Source: Candidatus Woesearchaeota archaeon
GTDB taxonomy: Archaea > Nanobdellota > Nanobdellia > Woesearchaeales > DSVV01
Direction: 5' to 3'
Assembly (NCBI GenBank): GCA_016214075.1
Contig: JACRPI010000041.1
Span: forward strand, 1-36,575
DNA length: 36,575 nt
In this document: positions 449-18,644 of the stretch, piece by piece
How the letters are laid out: each line of letters starts with the position of its first letter
Numbering within the stretch: position 1 is the first letter of the stretch
The notes under the pieces: model-generated
Database searches by the model: none
Seen by the model: the letters and a program-made list of their open reading frames with translations, nothing else
Told to the model about the DNA's origin: nothing
Program-made: the position numbers and the translations under genes

Positions 449-1627
449 ATGGACACATCGTGGATAAAAACAAAAGGAAGAACATTCGACCCCATTCAAT
501 TAAAAGTCGCGTATCAAAAAAATTTCAATCAAACAGCAAAACAGGAGTATGCAGGTCAATCCCCCAACATCTTCGTGGGCAGGTTTGGCTATCCAAACAT
601 CAATGTTGGCTTTCTTAATACAGAACAGTATACAGAGCATGATGAACAAATCGCTTGGGGAAAAACCAACAAGCAAATCCCCGAAATCATAAAGTTGAGA
701 ACACAGCTCATCAATTCTTCATTCAAAACAACAATTCATTCATTTAATGAAAAATTATTAGGGATGGCGCAAGAAATAAGCCAGGCGGCAAAACCAGTGG
801 AGATGGAAATCAATCTGGAAAAAAAACCGTTTTTCTCACTGAACATGAATCAGGAAGCTGCGCCGCATGGCCCAAATACAAAACTAAAGCGTGCGCAGCT
901 CACGGAAAATCCAAAGATCCCTGTGCATATTGACAAAGCAGTATCAGACAATGATTTGAAAGCAGCAGATGCGCTGACTTATCTCACGAAAAAAGGATAT
1001 GATGAACATGCACTAACAAAACTCTTGACAGTAGGAAATCTCGGTATAAAAAAGCAGAGAAAGCTCGTTCCAACGAGGTGGGGAATTACCGCAGTGCATT
1101 CCACAATAGGCAACAATATAGTTAAAGAAGTAAAATACCATGAGCAAGATCAATATGCTGCGTATTTTGGAAGCTACTTGGGAAATTATTATTTGCTCCT
1201 CACCTTTCCAGAAGTTTGGCAATATGAATTGTTTGAAACAATCATCAGTGAAAATATGCACTTCTCCACGAATTACGAACCATATGAAGGAAGAAAAGAA
1301 TATGCGCATGAAACAGCAGGAGGTTTCTACACAGTACGTCTTGCCTGTCTCGAACAATTGCAAAAAAGAAGACGCCAGGCTTCTGTTCTTGCGTTGCGAT
1401 TTATCAATCCAAAAGAATATGTTGCGCCGCTGGGTGTTTGGGTCACGCTTGAAGCAACAAGACGCGCGATACAAGCACAACCAATCGTTTTCTCGTCAAA
1501 AGAATTACTCCTCAATTACACGCAAATTTTTGTCAAGAAGAAATTTGGTTTAGATGTTACCCCAATCCTACAAAAAAGCATCCTTTTACAAAACATAAAG
1601 ATGCAAAAAAAGTTGACAGAATTTTAA
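449..1627 (+). CDS. nreA: DNA repair protein NreA with C-terminal PCNA-binding motif
   Basis: A 392-aa protein matching the archaeal Nre family (Nre_N plus Nre_C domains), implicated in repair of DNA damage in partnership with the sliding clamp PCNA. Family hallmarks are visible: FVGRFGYPNINVG near residue 45, KLVPTRWGITAVHSTI near 205, GRKEYAHETAGGFYTVRLA near 280 and RRRQASVLALRFI followed by APLGVWVTLEATR. The last seven residues, QKKLTEF, fit a PIP box (Q-x-x-h-x-x-F), as in characterised homologues that bind PCNA by their C-terminus. Length is normal. The ATG at 449 lies about 27 bases after a T-rich TATA-like stretch, consistent with leaderless expression. The gene converges on the ABC transporter ATPase gene. 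Confidence 0.88.
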   Translation: MDTSWIKTKGRTFDPIQLKVAYQKNFNQTAKQEYAGQSPNIFVGRFGYPNINVGFLNTEQYTEHDEQIAWGKTNKQIPEIIKLRTQLINSSFKTTIHSFNEKLLGMAQEISQAAKPVEMEINLEKKPFFSLNMNQEAAPHGPNTKLKRAQLTENPKIPVHIDKAVSDNDLKAADALTYLTKKGYDEHALTKLLTVGNLGIKKQRKLVPTRWGITAVHSTIGNNIVKEVKYHEQDQYAAYFGSYLGNYYLLLTFPEVWQYELFETIISENMHFSTNYEPYEGRKEYAHETAGGFYTVRLACLEQLQKRRRQASVLALRFINPKEYVAPLGVWVTLEATRRAIQAQPIVFSSKELLLNYTQIFVKKKFGLDVTPILQKSILLQNIKMQKKLTEF

Positions 1628-1719: not shown

Positions 1720-3303
1720 TTAGTTCAATATTTTTCTAAATTTTTCGCTTCTCCAATGTTTATAATCGCGATGAAGAAGATGCAGCAATTCAAGCAATTT
1801 TTTTGAATTTTTGAGCGCGAGACAATGATGTCTGATAAAATGTTTATCGTATCCAGAAATTTTCTGTAATTTTTCTTGAAGCTGCGCAAGAAAATCTTTG
1901 TCAAATTCAGGGAGATGCTGGAGTACAAAGCCGATAGTTTCATGATGAAGAAGCAGTTGAAGAACATCATCAAGAACAGTTTCATTGCCGAGCTTTGCAA
2001 GTGCGATAATTGCGTAATTTTTTGTAAGAAGTTCTTGTTGATCAAGGATCTCAAGAACGCGTTTCGTAAAGCTTTTGTCTTTAATTTGTCCAATAACATG
2101 AAGTGCTTCTTGTTGCATTTCCTTTGAGCCAGAAAGCATGTCTAAAAGAATGGGTTGGACAGTGATTCTATTTTTCTTCCAAAAAAGTTGACATGCGCGA
2201 GAACGAATTTTAGGATTAGTATGTTCTAGCAATTTTTCAAACTCTTGAAGCGGATCTTCTCCATCTTTACTAAACGATTCAAGTTTTTGCGCTTTGTGAT
2301 CATTGCTGTCCACTTTCAAAAATTTTCTATAAACATCTTCTAAGCCAAGAAGTCCTGCGTTCATTTGATCAACAGATATTTTGTATTGTCGCAGTGCTTG
2401 CGCAACGCGGACAAGAAGTTGTTTGGAGTCAATAGAAGTGTATAAACGGATGCTGTGGGTCTGCCCTTCACTCTCAAGAACAGTATAATCAAGGAAGAGA
2501 TGCTGTTTCTGCAGATTGTAAAGAACTTTGTTGATATTTTTTCCAGTGCAAACAATATCGAGGACATTGGTGTCTCTATACACTTGCTTGAGTTTTTTGA
2601 CAGAGCCGTCAAAAAGAAGTTTTCCTTCATTAATAATAAGAAGCCGCTTGCAGATTTTTTCCACTTCTTGAAGTTGGTGATCAGTGTAAATAATCGTCGT
2701 TCCTTTGTCGTTGAGTTCTTTCAGGATGGAGCGAATTTCATCTTTCGCGTAGGTGTCAAGACCAAGAAGCGGCTCGTCAAGGAAAAGGATTTTTGGATTT
2801 TTGAGCAGCGCGACAGCAAGAGAGTATTTTGCGAGCATGCCTGTGCTCAGACGCCAGACATCGTTGGTGCGTTTGTCTTCAAGTTTGAACTTTTTTAAAA
2901 GATAGTCAATGCGCGGTTTTGCTTCAGCGTCTGGAATGCCGATAAATGAAGCGGCAAGCGCCATGTTCTTTTCAAGAGACGCCCAGCCAATACCAGAATA
3001 ATCTTGACTGAACATCCAGGAAATTTCCTCTTTAATTTTCTCCTGATCTCGTTCAATGTCGTTGCCATAAATTTGCACTTTTCCTGAGGTTTTTCCCATG
3101 TTTGTGGTGAGGATGCGCATAAGGGTGCTTTTTCCCGCGCCATTAACGCCGATAAGGCCGACAAAATCTCCTGTATGGACATCAAAGCTGATGCCAGAGA
3201 GTGCTTTTGTAAGCAGCTTCCCTCGAAAAAATACTTTGTATTGGTAATAATCTTTTTTAAGATCGCGCACAGTGATAATAGGACGTTTCCCTTGCTTTGC
3301 CAT
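1720..3303 (-). CDS. ABC transporter ATP-binding protein with C-terminal HEAT-like extension
   Basis: A 527-aa protein. The first ~240 residues are an ABC ATPase of the ABC-2 exporter type: Walker A GVNGAGKST, Walker B ILFLDEP followed by LLGLD, and a switch histidine in IIYTDHQ. The signature loop reads LSTGM instead of LSGGQ. A linker of ~100 residues leads to an alpha-helical tail (from ~residue 350) with HEAT-like units such as KIRSRACQLFWKKN and MQQEALHVIGQIKD; this roughly doubles the usual ATPase length. ATG at 3303 was chosen because it overlaps the permease stop by one base (TAATG); a GTG nine bases upstream is possible. It is cotranscribed with the permease just upstream. Substrate is unknown. 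Confidence 0.85.
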   Translation of the reverse strand: MAKQGKRPIITVRDLKKDYYQYKVFFRGKLLTKALSGISFDVHTGDFVGLIGVNGAGKSTLMRILTTNMGKTSGKVQIYGNDIERDQEKIKEEISWMFSQDYSGIGWASLEKNMALAASFIGIPDAEAKPRIDYLLKKFKLEDKRTNDVWRLSTGMLAKYSLAVALLKNPKILFLDEPLLGLDTYAKDEIRSILKELNDKGTTIIYTDHQLQEVEKICKRLLIINEGKLLFDGSVKKLKQVYRDTNVLDIVCTGKNINKVLYNLQKQHLFLDYTVLESEGQTHSIRLYTSIDSKQLLVRVAQALRQYKISVDQMNAGLLGLEDVYRKFLKVDSNDHKAQKLESFSKDGEDPLQEFEKLLEHTNPKIRSRACQLFWKKNRITVQPILLDMLSGSKEMQQEALHVIGQIKDKSFTKRVLEILDQQELLTKNYAIIALAKLGNETVLDDVLQLLLHHETIGFVLQHLPEFDKDFLAQLQEKLQKISGYDKHFIRHHCLALKNSKKLLELLHLLHRDYKHWRSEKFRKILN

Positions 3304-4133
3304 TAAAACCACCGTCCTTCAATCTTCGCTCTGCGAATACCGTAGTAAAAGAGATAGAATCCTGCAAGGAAAATCAAGAGGTTGACAATAAGACCGCTCA
3401 AAATGAGAACAAGGATTTCTTTTTGATAATAAACATGATTGAGAAAAAGAGTTTCTCTCCAGATTAAAATGATGTATGCGCTAGGCAATATTTTTGGGAG
3501 AAAGACAAGAAATCTTGGAAGAAATGTGGTTGGAAAGTATTGACCAGAGAAAAATCTGTTAAGCTGTTCCATAAAAAAGCTGACAGGATTTCCTTGTTTC
3601 AAAAACAGTGTTGCGCCGACTGTCATGAGTTGAAATCCTAAATTACCAACAATAAAAATTCCTAACGCGAGAAGCAAGGTGATCCAGTTTTCAAGTCCAA
3701 AATACAGCAGGCTTTCTGTTGCGCTAAACTGCACAAGCAGGCTGTACACAATAATCATTGGAATAAAGATAGTAAATATGTCGAAGAGAAGCATGGTAAG
3801 AAAATTAATAAGAAAATATTCCCCTATGTGCATGTTCGATAAATAGACGAGTTTGAAAAGACCGCTCTGGCTGTCTTCGTGGAATTTATCAGTAAAACTT
3901 GCGCCGACTCCATCGACGAAATAAATTGCGACACTTCCGATAAGGATGAAAGGCATGTATCCGATTCCTTCATAGCCAAGTGTGGAGGGGTCAATAATTT
4001 TCGCGAGAAAGAACCACATAAGCACTTCTAAGCAGGTGTTCATCACATTAATGAGAATGTTCACTTTAAACGTGCAGAACTCTTGCCAGCGACAGATAAA
4101 GTTAGTTTGTAATTTTCGGAAAAACGGAAACAT
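3303..4133 (-). CDS. ABC-2 type transporter permease
   Basis: A 276-aa polytopic membrane protein with about six hydrophobic segments, the typical size and layout of ABC-2 permeases of the drug/polysaccharide export type. The N-terminus is basic (FRKLQTNFICRWQEFCTFK) and precedes the first membrane span. The motif DSQSGLFKLVYLSNM matches the cytoplasmic region of ABC-2 permeases that reads 'xxGxlexlxxsp'. Its stop codon overlaps the start of the ATPase gene, so the two form one export system. The only other gene close to its 5' end is the divergent cluster of tiny basic genes. Cargo cannot be predicted. Confidence 0.8.
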   Translation of the reverse strand: MFPFFRKLQTNFICRWQEFCTFKVNILINVMNTCLEVLMWFFLAKIIDPSTLGYEGIGYMPFILIGSVAIYFVDGVGASFTDKFHEDSQSGLFKLVYLSNMHIGEYFLINFLTMLLFDIFTIFIPMIIVYSLLVQFSATESLLYFGLENWITLLLALGIFIVGNLGFQLMTVGATLFLKQGNPVSFFMEQLNRFFSGQYFPTTFLPRFLVFLPKILPSAYIILIWRETLFLNHVYYQKEILVLILSGLIVNLLIFLAGFYLFYYGIRRAKIEGRWF

Positions 4134-6262: not shown

Positions 6263-7045
6263 ATGAAACTCAGGAACGTTCTTGTTGTTCATAAGATGGG
6301 ATATAGTGCAATAGAGAAGCAGACTGTTGATGCAGTGATGGAACTCCTGAGAAAAAAGAAAATTCTTCATCGCTCCATCTCTCGCCTGGAAGTGAATCAC
6401 GAAATAGTGAAAGGAAGAGACCTTATCATTATTGTGGGAGGGGATGGGACGTTTCTAAAAACAGCGCAGTTCACAACAGGCAACATTCCGTTTCTTTGCA
6501 TTAACGCGGATCCACAAAATACAGAAGGATTTTTTTCAGGCGCAACAAAAAAAACATGCGCAGCAAAAGTGGAAAGCATTTTGAAAGGAAAAATAAAATC
6601 AAAAAAATTCTGGCGTTTAATCGCAAAAATAAATGGAATAGAAATAGAGCCATGTTTGAACGAATACTATATAGGCCAGCAGAAGCCATACGACGTTTCC
6701 CGTTATCTCATCCAAACAGGGAAAAAAAGTGAAGAACAAAAGAGTAGCGGTGTTTTGATCTGCACTGCGGCAGGTTCAACTGCGTGGTGTAGAGGAGCTG
6801 GTGGAAACGTTTTGAAGCCAGAAAAAAAAGTATTCCAATTTGTCGTGCGGGAGCCGTATGTGGGAACATTGCTGAAAACAAAAATAACAAAAGGAATTCT
6901 CAAAGAAAAAGAGATGATCAAGATAACGGCAAAAACAGATGGGATGATCATTGTGCCAGATGCGGTGGGAAAGGAGCATCTCTTCCAAAGAAATGCTGTT
7001 GTGGAAATAAGTCTTGCGAAAAGTCCGATTCTTCTATTCAAATAG
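6263..7045 (+). CDS. nadK: NAD(+) kinase
   Basis: A 260-aa protein of the NAD kinase/diacylglycerol kinase superfamily, which makes NADP from NAD. It has the ATP-binding GGDGTFL motif near residue 59, LNEYYIG near 132 (the conserved N-E that contacts NAD ribose) and the glycine/serine-rich SGVLICTAAGSTAW near 165, where GSTA is the family hallmark. The C-terminal beta domain is shorter than in bacterial enzymes. The ATG at 6263 lies 26 bases from the TATA centre. The thiE-like and folate genes follow in the same orientation, 50 bases downstream, so NADP supply and pterin metabolism may be cotranscribed. Confidence 0.88.
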   Translation: MKLRNVLVVHKMGYSAIEKQTVDAVMELLRKKKILHRSISRLEVNHEIVKGRDLIIIVGGDGTFLKTAQFTTGNIPFLCINADPQNTEGFFSGATKKTCAAKVESILKGKIKSKKFWRLIAKINGIEIEPCLNEYYIGQQKPYDVSRYLIQTGKKSEEQKSSGVLICTAAGSTAWCRGAGGNVLKPEKKVFQFVVREPYVGTLLKTKITKGILKEKEMIKITAKTDGMIIVPDAVGKEHLFQRNAVVEISLAKSPILLFK

Positions 7046-7095
7046 CAAAAATTCTATATATTCTTTAAGGAGCTGAAATCAAAAACCTTAAAAGC

Positions 7096-7731
7096 ATGAG
7101 CGATCTTCGTTTTTCCATGAAAAACATTGGCGCGTATTTTATTCTCAATGAGATGCATTCTAAGAACGGGATTATTACAGATGCGAACAATGCGATTGGT
7201 GCGGGAATACGGGTAATTCATTACAGTGAAAAAAAACTTCGCAAGAGAGAAGTGTTGGAAAATGCGTATATTCTTTCCGCGTTATGCAAAAAAAATAATG
7301 TGCTTTTTATTATTGAAGACTATCCAGACATCGCGACATTAGTCAGCGCGGATGGCGTTCACTTAACACAGGAATTTAACATTGATCATGTTCGCAAAAT
7401 AATTGGTCCTGAGAAGCTTATTGGCGTTAATTTCACTTCACTAAGAGAAGCGGTGTATGCAGAAGAAAAAGGTGCGGATTATATCGGTGTTGATACAAGA
7501 GTGGCACCGCAGCTCACGGTAAAAGGAGCAGTAGGTTCTATGAAAAAAATGCGGGATCTCTTGACTGTCCCTATTGTTGCGCTTGGCGCGTTTACGTTGG
7601 AGCAGACACAGGAGTTGCTTGTTGCGGGTATAGATGGTGTAGGCATGATGCCGTTGCTTTCTGATGAGGGTGGCATTGAGCAGTATGTCAAGCAAGTCCT
7701 TGCAATTCAGGATGCAAGAAGAACATTTTAA
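7096..7731 (+). CDS. Thiamine-phosphate synthase/TenI-like TIM-barrel protein
   Basis: A 211-aa protein with the fold of ThiE/TenI: SADGVHLTQEF near residue 88, LIGVNFTSLREAVYAEEKGA near 115 and GADYIGVD. Several residues of genuine ThiE are missing. The Q-x-R-x-K motif of strand 2 reads VIHYSEKKL, the N-D-R stretch reads IIEDYPDI, and the pyrophosphate-binding T-x-T-K segment is replaced by DTRVAPQLTVKGAVG. It is therefore a family member with doubtful thiamine synthase activity. It sits between nadK and folP, which hints at a role connected with pterin or cofactor metabolism (inference). Confidence 0.72.
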   Translation: MSDLRFSMKNIGAYFILNEMHSKNGIITDANNAIGAGIRVIHYSEKKLRKREVLENAYILSALCKKNNVLFIIEDYPDIATLVSADGVHLTQEFNIDHVRKIIGPEKLIGVNFTSLREAVYAEEKGADYIGVDTRVAPQLTVKGAVGSMKKMRDLLTVPIVALGAFTLEQTQELLVAGIDGVGMMPLLSDEGGIEQYVKQVLAIQDARRTF

Positions 7732-7758
7732 TCTTCGATTTTCACCAAAGCATTGTCA

Positions 7759-7899
7759 CAGCGACCGCTCACCATCAGTCACTAGACCGATAGCATTCTC
7801 GCCCTTCAGGCTCCGGGCGGTCGCTGGGACTATTACAGTTTTCTGCTGTGCAGTATCCAAACGACTAATCATCGCTTCGCTCAAGACTGGTGGAAAACT
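7759..7899 (+). repeat. Compound palindromic element, copy A (intergenic)
   Basis: This 141-base element lies in the gap between the thiE-like gene and folP. Module 1 is bounded by CAGCGACCG (7759-7767) and CGGTCGCTG (7818-7826), a perfect 9-bp inverted repeat enclosing the core TAGACCGATAGCATTCTC. A GGACTATTAC linker leads to module 2, bounded by AGTTTTC (7837-7843) and GAAAACT (7893-7899). The same arrangement occurs inside folK (copy B, roughly 80 percent identical through module 1) and, with different outer stem sequence, at 28475-28605 (copy C). One forward frame is open across the element, as in copy B. Confidence 0.85.
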
Positions 7900-7918
7900 G
7901 AAATATTCTAATGAAACG

Positions 7919-7927
7919 TTTATAAAA
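7919..7927 (+). promoter_or_regulatory. TATA box for folP
   Basis: TTTATAAAA lies just downstream of palindromic copy A and is centred about 36 bases from the folP ATG at 7959. The fol operon may thus have its own promoter, separate from nadK. Confidence 0.55.
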
Positions 7928-7958
7928 CAAGAAAGACTCCTTCATCATGGTGTAATTG

Positions 7959-9161
7959 ATGAAGCTTCGTTTACGATATTATAATTCTCTCGCAGTGTTG
8001 GAAAAAGAATATGAAAGTATTGGCTGCGATCCCGCGGGAATTAAAATCATGAACAAGAAGGGAATATTTCTTACCTTAAAAGTGGAAGCCCTGCAACTCA
8101 GAGCAGCAATAATTCTCAAGCAGGAAATGATGGCGATTGGGGGAGAAGTAGTGGTGAGTAGAGACGTCATGACGCTCAAGCCAGAGAAAACAGATGTCCT
8201 CATGTTAGGAACAGAGAAGCAATGTCAAAAGCTAGTCATGAAGCTCTACCAACAACCGTTTGGTTGCAAAGAGCTTGCAGAGCAGCTCAAAAATCTGCTT
8301 GAAAAAAAGCTCTACGCAGAACCTGGCATGTGGAAAATAGAAAATTCTTTGCTTGACTTCACAAAGCCAATAATCATGGGGATTATAAACATCACGCCAG
8401 ACTCTTTTTCAGATGGCGGAAAATTTCTTAAGCCAGAGATAGCGATAGAACAGGCAAAACAGCTTATTGCAGAGGGTGCAGACATCCTTGATTTAGGCGC
8501 GGAAAGTTCCAGGCCAGGAAGCGACCCTGTTTCAGGAGAAGAAGAGCTGAAAAGATTGCTTCCTGTGCTTCAGGCATTAAAAAATGACAACTCCATAAAG
8601 ATCCCGATCTCTATTGATACCTACAAACCAGAAGTAGCGAAAATATGTTTAGAGAATGGTGCGCACATCATCAATGACATTACGGGCATGCAAAATCCTG
8701 CAATGCGAAAAGTAGTCGCAGAAAAAAATGTTCCAGTCATTATGATGCACATGCAAGGCACACCAAAAACAATGCAGGAAAATCCACAGTACAACGATGT
8801 GGTGGATGACATTATCTCTTTTTTTGAGCAACAAATTGCCGTATGCGAACAAGAAGGAATAACACAAATAATCTGTGATCCGGGAATAGGGTTCGGAAAA
8901 ACAGTGGAGCACAATCTCCAAATCCTGAATCGACTGAAAGAATTCAAGATGCTTGGAAAACCGCTGCTCATAGGAACATCAAGAAAATCGTTTATCAACA
9001 AAACAATTGGCGGTACGCCAGAGGATCGCGTAGAAGGAACAATCGCGAGCAATGTTGTCGCGAGAATGAACGGTGCGCACATCTTTCGTGTGCATGATGT
9101 CAAAGCGTGCAGGCGTGCATTAGAGCTCACAAATCTCATTCAGAATGGAGAAAAAAAATAA
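7959..9161 (+). CDS. folP: Dihydropteroate synthase with N-terminal extension
   Basis: A 400-aa protein that condenses p-aminobenzoate with hydroxymethyl-dihydropterin pyrophosphate. Family motifs are complete: MGIINITPDSFSDGG near residue 139, DLGAESSRPGSDP near 178, SIDTYKPE near 220, GAHIINDITG, PVIMMHMQGTP, ICDPGIGFGKT and PLLIGTSRKSF. The ~125-residue N-terminal extension (containing ILKQEMMAIGGEVVVSRD and TDVLMLGTEKQ) is known from thermophile and archaeal enzymes, so total length is not abnormal. ATG at 7959 was chosen; a TTG at 7956 is in frame. The gene overlaps folB by one base. Confidence 0.93.
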   Translation: MKLRLRYYNSLAVLEKEYESIGCDPAGIKIMNKKGIFLTLKVEALQLRAAIILKQEMMAIGGEVVVSRDVMTLKPEKTDVLMLGTEKQCQKLVMKLYQQPFGCKELAEQLKNLLEKKLYAEPGMWKIENSLLDFTKPIIMGIINITPDSFSDGGKFLKPEIAIEQAKQLIAEGADILDLGAESSRPGSDPVSGEEELKRLLPVLQALKNDNSIKIPISIDTYKPEVAKICLENGAHIINDITGMQNPAMRKVVAEKNVPVIMMHMQGTPKTMQENPQYNDVVDDIISFFEQQIAVCEQEGITQIICDPGIGFGKTVEHNLQILNRLKEFKMLGKPLLIGTSRKSFINKTIGGTPEDRVEGTIASNVVARMNGAHIFRVHDVKACRRALELTNLIQNGEKK

Positions 9162-9520
9162 TGATTGGAAAGATAACACTCAAAGGACTGAAGTATCAAA
9201 TAAAAATAGGCGTTACAGAAGAGGAACGCAAACAACCACAACCTGTGCTCATCGATCTTCAGTTGTACCTTGACATCACAAAAGCAGTGGCAACAGAAGA
9301 CATTGAAGAAACAGTAAACTATAGTGCTGTACAAAAAAAAGTAAACGTATTTCTAGAAAACAAGGAATATGTTTTAGTGGAAAAAGTAAGTGCTGATCTT
9401 GTCAATCTACTTCTTTCTGAATTTGAAAAAATCAAAGCAGTCAAATGCACCTGTTGGAAGCCAGAAGCGCTGAAAGACGCGGAAAATGTGGGTGTTACTG
9501 TTGTCAGAAAAAGAAAGTAA
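9161..9520 (+). CDS. folB: Dihydroneopterin aldolase
   Basis: A 119-aa protein with the FolB fold: KGLKYQIKIGVTEEERKQPQ at the N-terminus, VNYSAVQKKV near residue 53 and YVLVEKVSADL near 70, which carries the conserved Glu and Lys of the active site. It ends with the usual VxVVRKRK strand. It converts dihydroneopterin to hydroxymethyl-dihydropterin, the substrate of FolK. The ATG shares a base with the folP stop (TAATG), and the 3' end overlaps folK, so the three fol genes are translationally packed. Confidence 0.9.
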   Translation: MIGKITLKGLKYQIKIGVTEEERKQPQPVLIDLQLYLDITKAVATEDIEETVNYSAVQKKVNVFLENKEYVLVEKVSADLVNLLLSEFEKIKAVKCTCWKPEALKDAENVGVTVVRKRK

Positions 9521-10154
9521 TATATTTATTGGTTTGGGAACAAATCTTGGGAATAAGGAAGAAAATCTAAAACATGCTATTGAGGAAATAGAAAAAGTTG
9601 CAGAAGTTCTTGTCTGCTCACCAATATATGAAACAGAACCTATCGGGTTTGCGAACCAGCCGTTAGTCAACAGCGACCGACCACCATCGGTCAATAGACC
9701 GATGGCATGCTCACTTCGCTCGGGTCGGTCGCTGGGACTACTAAAGTTTTCCACCAGCGTAATTTTCGTACCACTGGTGTCGCTTCGCCCACACCAGTGG
9801 AAAACTTCAGTATTTTATAATCAAGTGCTAGAAATACGCACTGCATTAAATCCAGAAGCGCTTCTTGTTGCGCTAAAAGATATTGAAAAAAAATTGGGCA
9901 GAGTTCCCACAATCAGAAATGGGCCAAGAAGTATTGACTGTGATATCTTGTATCACAAAAACAGAATTGTAGAAACAGAAACACTGGTAATCCCGCATCC
10001 TCGGGCGGCAGAACGTGCGTTTGTTCTTATGCCATTGCAGGATATTGCACCAGAATTTGTGGATCCTGTACAAAAAAAAACAATTCATGAATTAGTGGAA
10101 AAGCTTCCAGAAGAAGAGAAGAGGAAAGTTAGGAAATTGTGCAAACGTGGGTGA
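9486..10154 (+). CDS. folK: Hydroxymethyl-dihydropterin pyrophosphokinase (HPPK) with in-frame palindromic insert
   Basis: A 222-aa open frame containing a complete HPPK: IFIGLGTNLGNKEENLKHAI at the start, YETEPIGFANQP near residue 57, FYNQVLEIRTALNPEALL near 110, GRVPTIRNGPRSIDCDILY with the Mg-binding D-x-D, and IPHPRAAERAFVLMPLQ. Normal HPPK is about 160-175 aa. The surplus is a block of about 49 residues (LVNSDRPPSVNRPMACSLRS… to WKTS) exactly between FANQP and VFYNQ, encoded by palindromic element copy B. The frame stays open and both halves are intact, so the enzyme may tolerate the insert as a loop. Start is ATG 9486 or TTG 9501. Confidence 0.85.
   Translation: MWVLLLSEKESNIFIGLGTNLGNKEENLKHAIEEIEKVAEVLVCSPIYETEPIGFANQPLVNSDRPPSVNRPMACSLRSGRSLGLLKFSTSVIFVPLVSLRPHQWKTSVFYNQVLEIRTALNPEALLVALKDIEKKLGRVPTIRNGPRSIDCDILYHKNRIVETETLVIPHPRAAERAFVLMPLQDIAPEFVDPVQKKTIHELVEKLPEEEKRKVRKLCKRG
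9671..9806 (+). repeat. Compound palindromic element, copy B (inside folK)
   Basis: This 136-base element lies within the folK coding sequence. Module 1 has arms CAGCGACCG (9671-9679) and CGGTCGCTG (9725-9733), with a nested ATCGGTC/GACCGAT hairpin and the core TAGACCGATGGCATGCTC. Module 2 has AGTTTTCCAC/GTGGAAAACT arms around a CCACTGGTGT/ACACCAGTGG hairpin. It is collinear with copy A at 7759-7899. The whole interruption of folK (about 9663-9809) is 147 bases, an exact multiple of three with no stop. Confidence 0.88.
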
Positions 10155-10860
10155 AAAATTCAGGAGTATGAGAAGAATGTTCTTGGTAATCATCATATGT
10201 TGAAATAGTGCTAAACCCTACTTCATGAAGTAATGCTTTGAGTTCTCCTGTTTTGAAAGGATAAAGAGTAAGTCTCACACTTTCATGAGTCCTCCTATCT
10301 TTATACTCCATAACTATTTCTTCATAAGTGATGGAAACAGGGTACGCGTCAATCTCTTCTCTTCCGCAGTACACAACAGTGCCAGACCAACGATAATTTC
10401 TTCCAGAATGATCAGAAAGAAAAAGTGCTGGATAGTTTCTTTCATCAATAATCAGTTTCCCTTCTGGCGTAAGTGCTTCTCTAAAACTTCGAAGTGCGGA
10501 AAGCTGTTCTTCTCGATCAAACAACAACGTGAGTGAATTCCCTAAACAAGTAATAGCGTCAAAAGAAGAAGGGTAGAGAGAACCAATTTCTTCCCAAGAA
10601 TGTGCTGTTGTGCTAAGTGGAACTCCGTAACGGAGAGCTTCTTGCTCAGCCAGTTGCCTATAATGGGGATCTATTTCGTTGGAAACAAGATGTTCAATGC
10701 CTGCGAAGCGAAGACCAAGGCTCGTTGCTCCAGAGCCAAGTGCTGCGTCAAAAATATGTGGATTTTCATAGTCCTTCAGCTGTTCAAGTAAGAAAGGAAT
10801 CTCTTTCTTGCGTCTTTCTTCAAAATTGACAAACCTTATCCACATGGTGTACATATTCAT
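10129..10860 (-). CDS. SAM-dependent methyltransferase, glycine N-methyltransferase-like
   Basis: A 243-aa class I methyltransferase. Motif I reads FDAALGSGATSLGLRFAG near residue 37, followed by the acidic NEID at the end of strand 2. ITCLGNSLTLLFDR near 103 and KLIIDERNYPALFL near 133 resemble glycine/sarcosine N-methyltransferases (CLGNS and DxRNYD motifs). Substrate specificity cannot be settled from sequence. The 3' end overlaps the convergent folK by 26 bases. Several ATGs cluster at the start (10860, 10854, 10845); the first is listed. Confidence 0.75.
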   Translation of the reverse strand: MNMYTMWIRFVNFEERRKKEIPFLLEQLKDYENPHIFDAALGSGATSLGLRFAGIEHLVSNEIDPHYRQLAEQEALRYGVPLSTTAHSWEEIGSLYPSSFDAITCLGNSLTLLFDREEQLSALRSFREALTPEGKLIIDERNYPALFLSDHSGRNYRWSGTVVYCGREEIDAYPVSITYEEIVMEYKDRRTHESVRLTLYPFKTGELKALLHEVGFSTISTYDDYQEHSSHTPEFFTHVCTIS

Positions 10861-17970: not shown

Positions 17971-18032
17971 CTGATTGTAACCTTTTTCGTTCTATTTAAC
18001 AGTTACTATTTGGAAAATCTTCTTCTAATTAT

Positions 18033-18121
18033 CTTACATAATATTTACTAAAAATAAAGCTTATGTAAGAAAAAATATGTATATTTTACATAATATTTAA
18101 AAGTAATAACTATTATGTAAG
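18033..18121 (+). promoter_or_regulatory. Duplicated palindromic operator with embedded TATA box
   Basis: Two direct copies, 52 bases apart, each consist of TTACATAATATTTA (18034-18047 and 18086-18099) and a downstream TTATGTAAG (18061-18069 and 18113-18121). TTACATAA and TTATGTAA are complementary, so each copy is a palindrome with a ~13-19-base spacer. The second copy contains the likely TATA box (ATATTTAAAA at 18093-18102) for the HTH gene starting at 18138. A repressor bound here would occlude the promoter; autoregulation by the HTH protein is the simplest model. Confidence 0.75.
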
Positions 18122-18137
18122 AAAAGAAGCACAAAAA

Positions 18138-18644
18138 ATGAGCGGTGTGAAGAAAAAAGACGAGCGACAACTACTTGAAGTACTCACCTTGCTCAAAAAA
18201 GTAGAGCCAAAAGATATTCTCAAGCTTCTGAAGGAAAAAGAAAAGCAAGAACGCCAGCAGCAGAGTCAGCATATTCCTGTTTCTTTATTCGCTGCAACAC
18301 CGCTGAGTAGTCTTGAAGCGATAACAGTGTATCTTCGAGAGAAGCGGCAATTACAATTTGTGCAGATGGAAAAATTACTTGATCGAAATCAGATTGCGTT
18401 GAGTACAACATATAGGCGAGCGAGAAAAAAATATGCGATTTCGCTAGATATTCCAGAAACAAAATGGACAATTCCATGTTTATGTATTGCGGATAAAAAA
18501 TTAAGTGTTCTTGAAAGTATTGTCGTGTATCTAAAAAAAACATATTCTCTCTCTAATGCAAGTATAGCAAAGCTCCTCAAAAAAGATCAAAGAACAATCT
18601 GGACAGTTCTGAACCGTGCGAAGAAGAAGGAGGTGAGAACATGA
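18138..18644 (+). CDS. Two-HTH DNA-binding regulator
   Basis: A 168-aa basic protein. After a charged helical N-terminus it has two similar helix-turn-helix units. The first begins SSLEAITVYLREKRQLQFVQ (from ~residue 57) and ends TTYRRARKKY; the second begins SVLESIVVYLKKTYSLSNAS (from ~residue 121) and ends TIWTVLNRAKKK. Each resembles the sigma-region-4 type HTH with a serine/threonine-containing recognition helix. Two HTH units per chain fit the tandem palindromes upstream. The stop overlaps the start of the giant surface protein by four bases (ATGA), which implies coupled translation and a role in controlling that gene. Confidence 0.65.
   Translation: MSGVKKKDERQLLEVLTLLKKVEPKDILKLLKEKEKQERQQQSQHIPVSLFAATPLSSLEAITVYLREKRQLQFVQMEKLLDRNQIALSTTYRRARKKYAISLDIPETKWTIPCLCIADKKLSVLESIVVYLKKTYSLSNASIAKLLKKDQRTIWTVLNRAKKKEVRT

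Follow-up and report, generated by a model that had tools for sequence, protein, structure and literature searches.

A mobile two-hairpin element in frame within the folK gene of a Woesearchaeota archaeon

Interrupted folK gene and site of the insert

The window analysed here is a whole stretch of 36,575 nucleotides from a Candidatus Woesearchaeota archaeon (contig JACRPI010000041.1), in which the HPPK motifs of a folK gene are separated by an extra block of codons. The question raised by this locus is what this block is and whether the gene can still give a working enzyme. The features concerned are the following:

7956..9161, plus strand: folP (Pterin_bind), from its Pfam match
9161..9520, plus strand: folB, overlapping the 5' end of folK, from its Pfam match
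9486..10154, plus strand: folK (HPPK) ORF, interrupted in frame, from its Pfam HPPK match
9666..9812, plus strand: two-hairpin mobile element in frame in folK, 49 codons without a stop, from alignment, copies and fold
9813..9821, plus strand: FYN codons of HPPK directly 3' of the insert, from alignment

Using a profile search, Pfam HPPK was found to match the folK ORF in two stretches, and the motifs RNGPRSID-DIL and PHPR were both present in the protein. This agrees with an earlier, sequence-only reading of the locus, which had placed HPPK motifs on both sides of a stop-free block of 147 bases (49 codons). The adjoining folP and folB genes gave full Pfam matches, and the start codon of folK is uncertain (9486 ATG or 9501 TTG). 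The insert reads GTC...GTA and is joined to Gln-Pro-Leu before it and Phe-Tyr-Asn after it, with the flanks IGFANQPL and FYNQVLEI. Its length had been read correctly, and its position (9663–9809) had been set about one codon too far to the left; owing to a repeated TA, the boundaries 9664–9810 to 9666–9812 are equivalent and the cut is ambiguous by two bases. The Asn of FYN is the pterin-binding residue of HPPK, and the insert lies in the segment called loop 2.

The claim that such a block is absent from normal HPPK was borne out by alignment with homologs from one genome of the host's genus (G002, 49% identity) and three of its family (G003, G004, G008; genomes, contigs and loci are given as G, C and L numbers). 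All four are uninterrupted and lack the 49 codons, which form the single extra block of the window protein, and a native loop of the same length was not found among them. The spacing from Gln to Phe is two residues in each of the relatives, as it is in the window protein without the block (P, L). There are 33 distinct PDB sequences that match the window FolK, and the same two residues were present in all five PDB HPPKs aligned residue by residue (2cg8, 8sk1, 3qbc, 4cyu, 2qx0). No HPPK relatives for alignment were found in the viral contigs searched. In G004, folP and folK were seen to be fused in one 435-codon open frame (L010; G004:C6:78660-79040).

Fold and covariation of the element

The insert with short flanks was predicted to fold at -70.4 kcal/mol (z = -7.6), with none of 200 shuffled sequences as stable. 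The predicted fold comprises two adjacent hairpins:

9666..9738, plus strand: hairpin 1, in which an outer stem surrounds a 9-pair hairpin and a very small one, from fold and covariation over 9 copies
9739..9812, plus strand: hairpin 2 (TACT...AGTA), with arms of 16 bases, from fold

The block had been described as a palindromic element, a description that holds as regards an in-frame mobile insertion and fails as regards a single palindrome, given the two hairpins and the inner branches of the first.

Covariation in hairpin 1 was assessed over nine copies from four genomes (G000, G004, G006, and G057), using a structure that we wrote from these same sequences. Standard pairs occupied 94.7% of cells, a value reached by none of 500 shuffles, and changes on both sides were found in 11 of the 23 pairs, which again no shuffle of 500 equalled. 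Sliding the partner by one base lowered the pairing to 41–46%. The number of further pair types was no higher than in shuffles (457 of 500 reached it). For hairpin 2, the arms of 20 hand-listed pairs had a mean complementarity of 0.99, a value that is high by construction as the arms had been picked for complementarity, against 0.48 for arms taken from different copies; what follows from this test is a wide divergence of the paired sequences from copy to copy. In the folK copy the stems are near-perfect, and this copy obtained the top score to the hairpin 1 covariance model (R1), though it is one of the training sequences. Rfam gave no matches at E ≤ 1 within window positions 7000–10500.

Copies in the host genome and spread of the family

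The block had also been read as a structured repeat occurring elsewhere in the window, and a DNA search of the host genome (1.62 Mb, 46 contigs) verified this, with six matches at E ≤ 1e-3 including the folK copy itself and a best other match of E 2e-49. These represent three more full copies and two decayed ones, the latter being one partial (C14) and one degenerate (C43). The full copies on C28 and C7 match at 88 and 86%, and a further copy is located in the window (E 2e-17; 83% over its first 82 bases):

7755..7905, plus strand: second element copy, between the TMP-TENI gene and folP, from DNA search

An open phase runs through this second copy, forming an ORF (7664–7984, plus strand, 106 codons) with no recognised gene. 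The search of the whole genome yielded further copies of the element, the absence of which would have spoken against the sequence-only reading; no further in-frame insertion in a known gene was recognised among those of the host genome, and three were recognised in other genomes.

The covariance model of hairpin 1 was searched against 241 genomes of the host's order at E ≤ 1e-3, and the family was present in 44 of them (the host included) with up to 21 copies per genome, many copies within one genome being identical. A pattern scan of GTDB (84,980 species) returned 69 stretches, with 64 titled Candidatus Woesearchaeota, four Nanoarchaeota and one Micrarchaeota, a count that does not bound the range of the family as the pattern was narrow. 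The Micrarchaeota-titled stretch is a single 3.5 kb contig (JAHFFJ010000078.1, L096) with a divergent copy, for which mis-binning is possible.

A set of copies was assembled from the model matches in three rounds. The first 84 matches supplied 72 copies, after 12 that were partial, antisense or weak had been set aside, and a second hairpin was obtained for 69; the next 77 gave 69 (eight already being in the set), with a second hairpin in 68 and a sum of 134 distinct copies; and a further 41 gave 34 (two duplicates and five weak ones omitted), for a total of 168 distinct copies. At least 250 bp were available on both sides of 140 of these, and at least 600 bp on both sides of 94 of the first 134.

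Copies between and within genes

The element is mostly intergenic. In 26 of the 94 copies the closed site is spanned by an ORF of 120 codons or more, against 80% (1175/1468) of random positions in the same loci. Of the 140 copies flanked by 250 bp or more on either side, we judged nine to be gene-internal; these were selected by eye from the best 45 of 92 spanning ORFs, guided by the coding score to either side and partly by homology, and unclear cases (e.g., L110, L111, L312, L131, L183, L313, and L327) were left uncounted. Four of the nine, all from different genomes, keep the frame and contain no stop:

folK, window genome: 147 nt
YdjM-like membrane protein gene, G004: 144 nt
NUDIX gene, G055: 138 nt
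msrB, G194: 135 nt, right end of the element truncated

Uninterrupted homologs were found for the other three genes also. The two parts of the YdjM-like gene, the protein of which has a Pfam match below cut-off (E 2e-4), lie within about 55 bases of each other in nine other genomes of 60 searched, three of which were aligned in full; a tenth genome (G057) matches the element only. For the NUDIX gene, the best downstream match was 60% identical (G003), and one homolog at 50% (L296, G054) was aligned in full. The MsrB protein matched 22 distinct PDB sequences, and in PDB 6q9v residues 119 and 120 are adjacent at the point that corresponds to the gap between 123 and 166 of the query.

In the other five gene-internal copies, stop codons or a loss of frame disrupt the gene:

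L139: methyltransferase
L306: HTH-nucleotidyltransferase-like
L085: membrane protein, no Pfam hit
L145: HAD-like, domain crossing the junction
L207: no Pfam hit

L145 is the only one of these in which a Pfam domain clearly crosses the junction, the other calls resting in part on our own reading. Two of the uncounted copies stand at the ends of ORFs. One (L327, from about 1241; G323:C3) occupies, in frame, the 5' end of a 313-codon lipoprotein-like ORF, the true start codon of which may follow the element, and the other (L313, 2066–2141, minus strand; G194:C49) is at the C-terminal end of a RelE-like ORF (a family name assigned by eye) and would extend the protein in frame.

All four in-frame copies are read on the plus strand, with the reading in frame with the first codon of the element. 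This plus-strand phase 0 was open in 45 of 118 distinct copies, compared with 25 and 20 for the other two phases; the family has one phase open more often than the other two, and that phase is not open in most copies. The count was anchored on the CCACC core and drawn from 163 copies of usable length, with 13 lacking the anchor and identical hairpin-1 sequences counted once. Under a chance model in which one copy in three has a length divisible by three and each copy is open at the rate seen over its own six phases, the probability of at least four of nine copies being in frame was P = 0.007; without folK, which had prompted the search, that of at least three of eight was P = 0.034. Were every length taken to be divisible by three (family mean), the values would be 0.10 and 0.22, respectively, and four of nine in frame would not be unusual. 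An excess of in-frame cases is thus modestly supported, and it is inflated to the extent that decayed broken genes would be missed.

Ends of the element and its mobilization

The ends were measured in one genome, G157, in which 19 near-identical copies have both flanks (loci among L079–L145). The exact 5' end GTC occurs in 13 of these and the complete 3' end in 11, with both in six. The 3' side is short in eight copies, and the 5' side is short by 5–11 bases in four and by a single base in two; L143 alone is short at both sides, the 5' side by one base. It was observed in these copies that the outer arm of one hairpin or the other is partly missing, and never both, bar this one trivial exception. 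By eye, neither a target-site duplication nor a conserved target was visible in the flanks of the 19 copies or in the other copy flanks listed, and the ends (5' such as GTCAAA or GTAAAA, 3' such as ATTTTA or ATTCAA) do not form terminal inverted repeats.

The Y1 transposase was considered as a candidate mobilizer and could not be tied to the element. PF01797 was found in 11 of 20 chosen genomes, with three matches about 100, 255, and 365 bp from a copy; some copy-rich genomes, namely G134 (21 copies, 73% complete) and G159 (eight copies, 92% complete), gave no match. In the flanks of the PF01797 matches inspected, no transposase unit was seen that ended in the element.

The ragged ends and the lack of a visible target duplication would fit a single-stranded hairpin intermediate better than classical cut-and-paste. 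More speculatively, and with the balance of our judgement against it as a complete account, the elements may form a class of Woesearchaeota-type archaea that moves as a single-stranded two-hairpin molecule through unrecognised machinery, leaving ragged ends and no target duplication, with a recurrent open phase (VKxxRPPPVNRxxACSxRSGRF) that would let different enzymes take up a protein insert.

Probable function of the enlarged FolK and alternative explanations

That folK contains an in-frame mobile element of two hairpins is nearly certain, and the evidence supports the in-frame insertion of a mobile palindromic element as fitting far better than the alternatives considered. The explanation that we favor as a whole, and hold to be fairly probable, is that a non-autonomous mobile element of ~150 bp, consisting of two adjacent hairpins, was inserted into the loop 2 segment of folK, that an enlarged FolK is made and is probably active, and that the element has spread in the order mostly between genes, with some gene-internal copies in frame and others breaking the gene. 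The folK copy has the orientation and phase that are most often stop-free in the family and a length that is a multiple of three, and the gene therefore still reads through. FolK would accordingly carry a 49-residue insert in its loop. It would probably keep its activity, as this is the one HPPK gene found in the host genome and the motifs are intact on both sides of the insert, and a working enlarged FolK is in our judgement likely, with appreciable room for doubt. In-frame copies of the element may have been kept by selection. An AlphaFold single-sequence model of the enlarged FolK was uninformative (pLDDT 34.6).

Another explanation is that a recent insertion inactivated FolK, the open frame being a matter of luck and the gene an early pseudogene. 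The 49 stop-free codons, the length in multiples of three, the intact downstream motifs, the full Pfam matches of adjoining folP and folB and the three other in-frame cases all speak against this, whereas the near-perfect stems of the folK copy and its top R1 score (as a training sequence) suit it, since such stems may indicate a young copy in which an absence of decay says little. HPPK is also dispensable in many relatives, a match being present in 7 of the 60 genomes searched, and the folK of G041 has been broken by a different hairpin insert (see below). On this evidence, an early pseudogene is an unlikely reading of the locus that nevertheless deserves to be taken seriously. Removal of the insert from the RNA like an intron, or its skipping, would give a normal FolK and would be in keeping with an insert that folds on its own with ends defined by hairpins, but each hairpin closes within the element, leaving its two ends apart, the fold shows no apparent bulge-helix-bulge where the insert joins the gene, and Rfam gave no match at the above threshold. 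The frame would also not need to stay open, and we regard this route as very improbable. For a native, lineage-specific HPPK loop that is palindromic by chance, no point in favor was found; relatives of the same genus and family lack it, related sequence recurs at other places in the genome and, in further genomes, within different genes, and the copies refute it to the point that it is scarcely credible. An assembly error was also considered, and copies of differing sequence and two gene halves that fit together speak against it as they do against the intron and the native loop.

Relation to known palindromic elements

The Rickettsia palindromic elements (RPEs; Ogata et al., 2000, 2002) are described in three papers as being about 105–150 bp long and located either between genes or in frame within them (PMC10969869, PMC2229807, PMC3733652). 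One of these describes a long stem-loop with terminal inverted repeats (PMC2229807), and a review reports that nearly half of the RPEs of R. conorii are in frame in genes (PMC10969869). As far as these descriptions extend, the present element shares a size of about 105–150 bp, a strong structure, many copies and the presence of some copies in frame and open in unrelated genes and of others between genes. The same repeat stands between genes and in frame in four unrelated genes of four genomes, with an open frame through the element in each of these four cases. The present element differs in having two adjacent hairpins without terminal inverted repeats, in belonging to an archaeal order and in being mostly intergenic with few in-frame cases. 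It works like an RPE and has a different structure from that described for RPEs.

An archaeal parallel to the Rickettsia elements had been suggested for this locus, and this stands as regards the way of working, though it would not be the first. Palindromic repetitive elements with coding potential were reported in Methanocaldococcus jannaschii by Suyama, Lathe and Bork (2005), as cited in passages of PMC2229807 and PMC2996958; going by these citing descriptions, they are likewise archaeal palindromic repeats fused into protein genes, in another archaeal group. A literature search, with subscription papers mostly outside its reach, returned no paper recognised as dealing with such elements in Woesearchaeota or DPANN among the matches listed.

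Like the MITEs of bacteria and archaea, the element is small, present in multiple copies and without a transposase gene of its own, but it has no terminal inverted repeats, its ends are ragged and no target-site duplication was seen. REPs (GTAG/CGTC REP repeats, RAYT REPtrons) are given as 20–40 bp in PMC3733652. With the GTAG/CGTC REPs as described there, the element shares hairpins with a recurrent 5' foot (GTC, GTA, ATC, or TTC in this case), whereas it is several times longer, the base before GTC varies and no consistent Y1 transposase partner was seen among the 20 genomes searched.

Protein-coding palindromes, described in Rickettsia, Wolbachia and, according to the citations in PMC2229807 and PMC2996958, one archaeon, are a proposed route by which new segments are added to proteins. 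The origin, tolerance and evolution of such inserts could be tested independently with a covarying two-hairpin family that is present in many genomes of an archaeal order and has four in-frame insertions in unrelated genes. For the host enzymes FolK and MsrB, many family members have solved structures (the 33 and 22 distinct PDB sequences matched above).

Other repeat structures were also observed. In the window, an AT-rich inverted and direct repeat (18020–18134) occurs upstream of the ORF at 18138. The folK gene of G041, a genome from a separate family within the order, is disrupted by an out-of-frame insert of a different kind (L013, about 1410–1503, minus strand; G041:C21, about 3733–3823), which also looks like two adjacent hairpins (AGAGAAGTTTGA..TCAAACTTCTCT and AGAGAACTTTGC..GCAAAGTTCTC). 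A further repeated unit of G041, with the ends GGTCATGGCG...AAGGCCATGAC, is present in two nearby copies (L189, about 1375–1535 and 2390–2510, minus strand).
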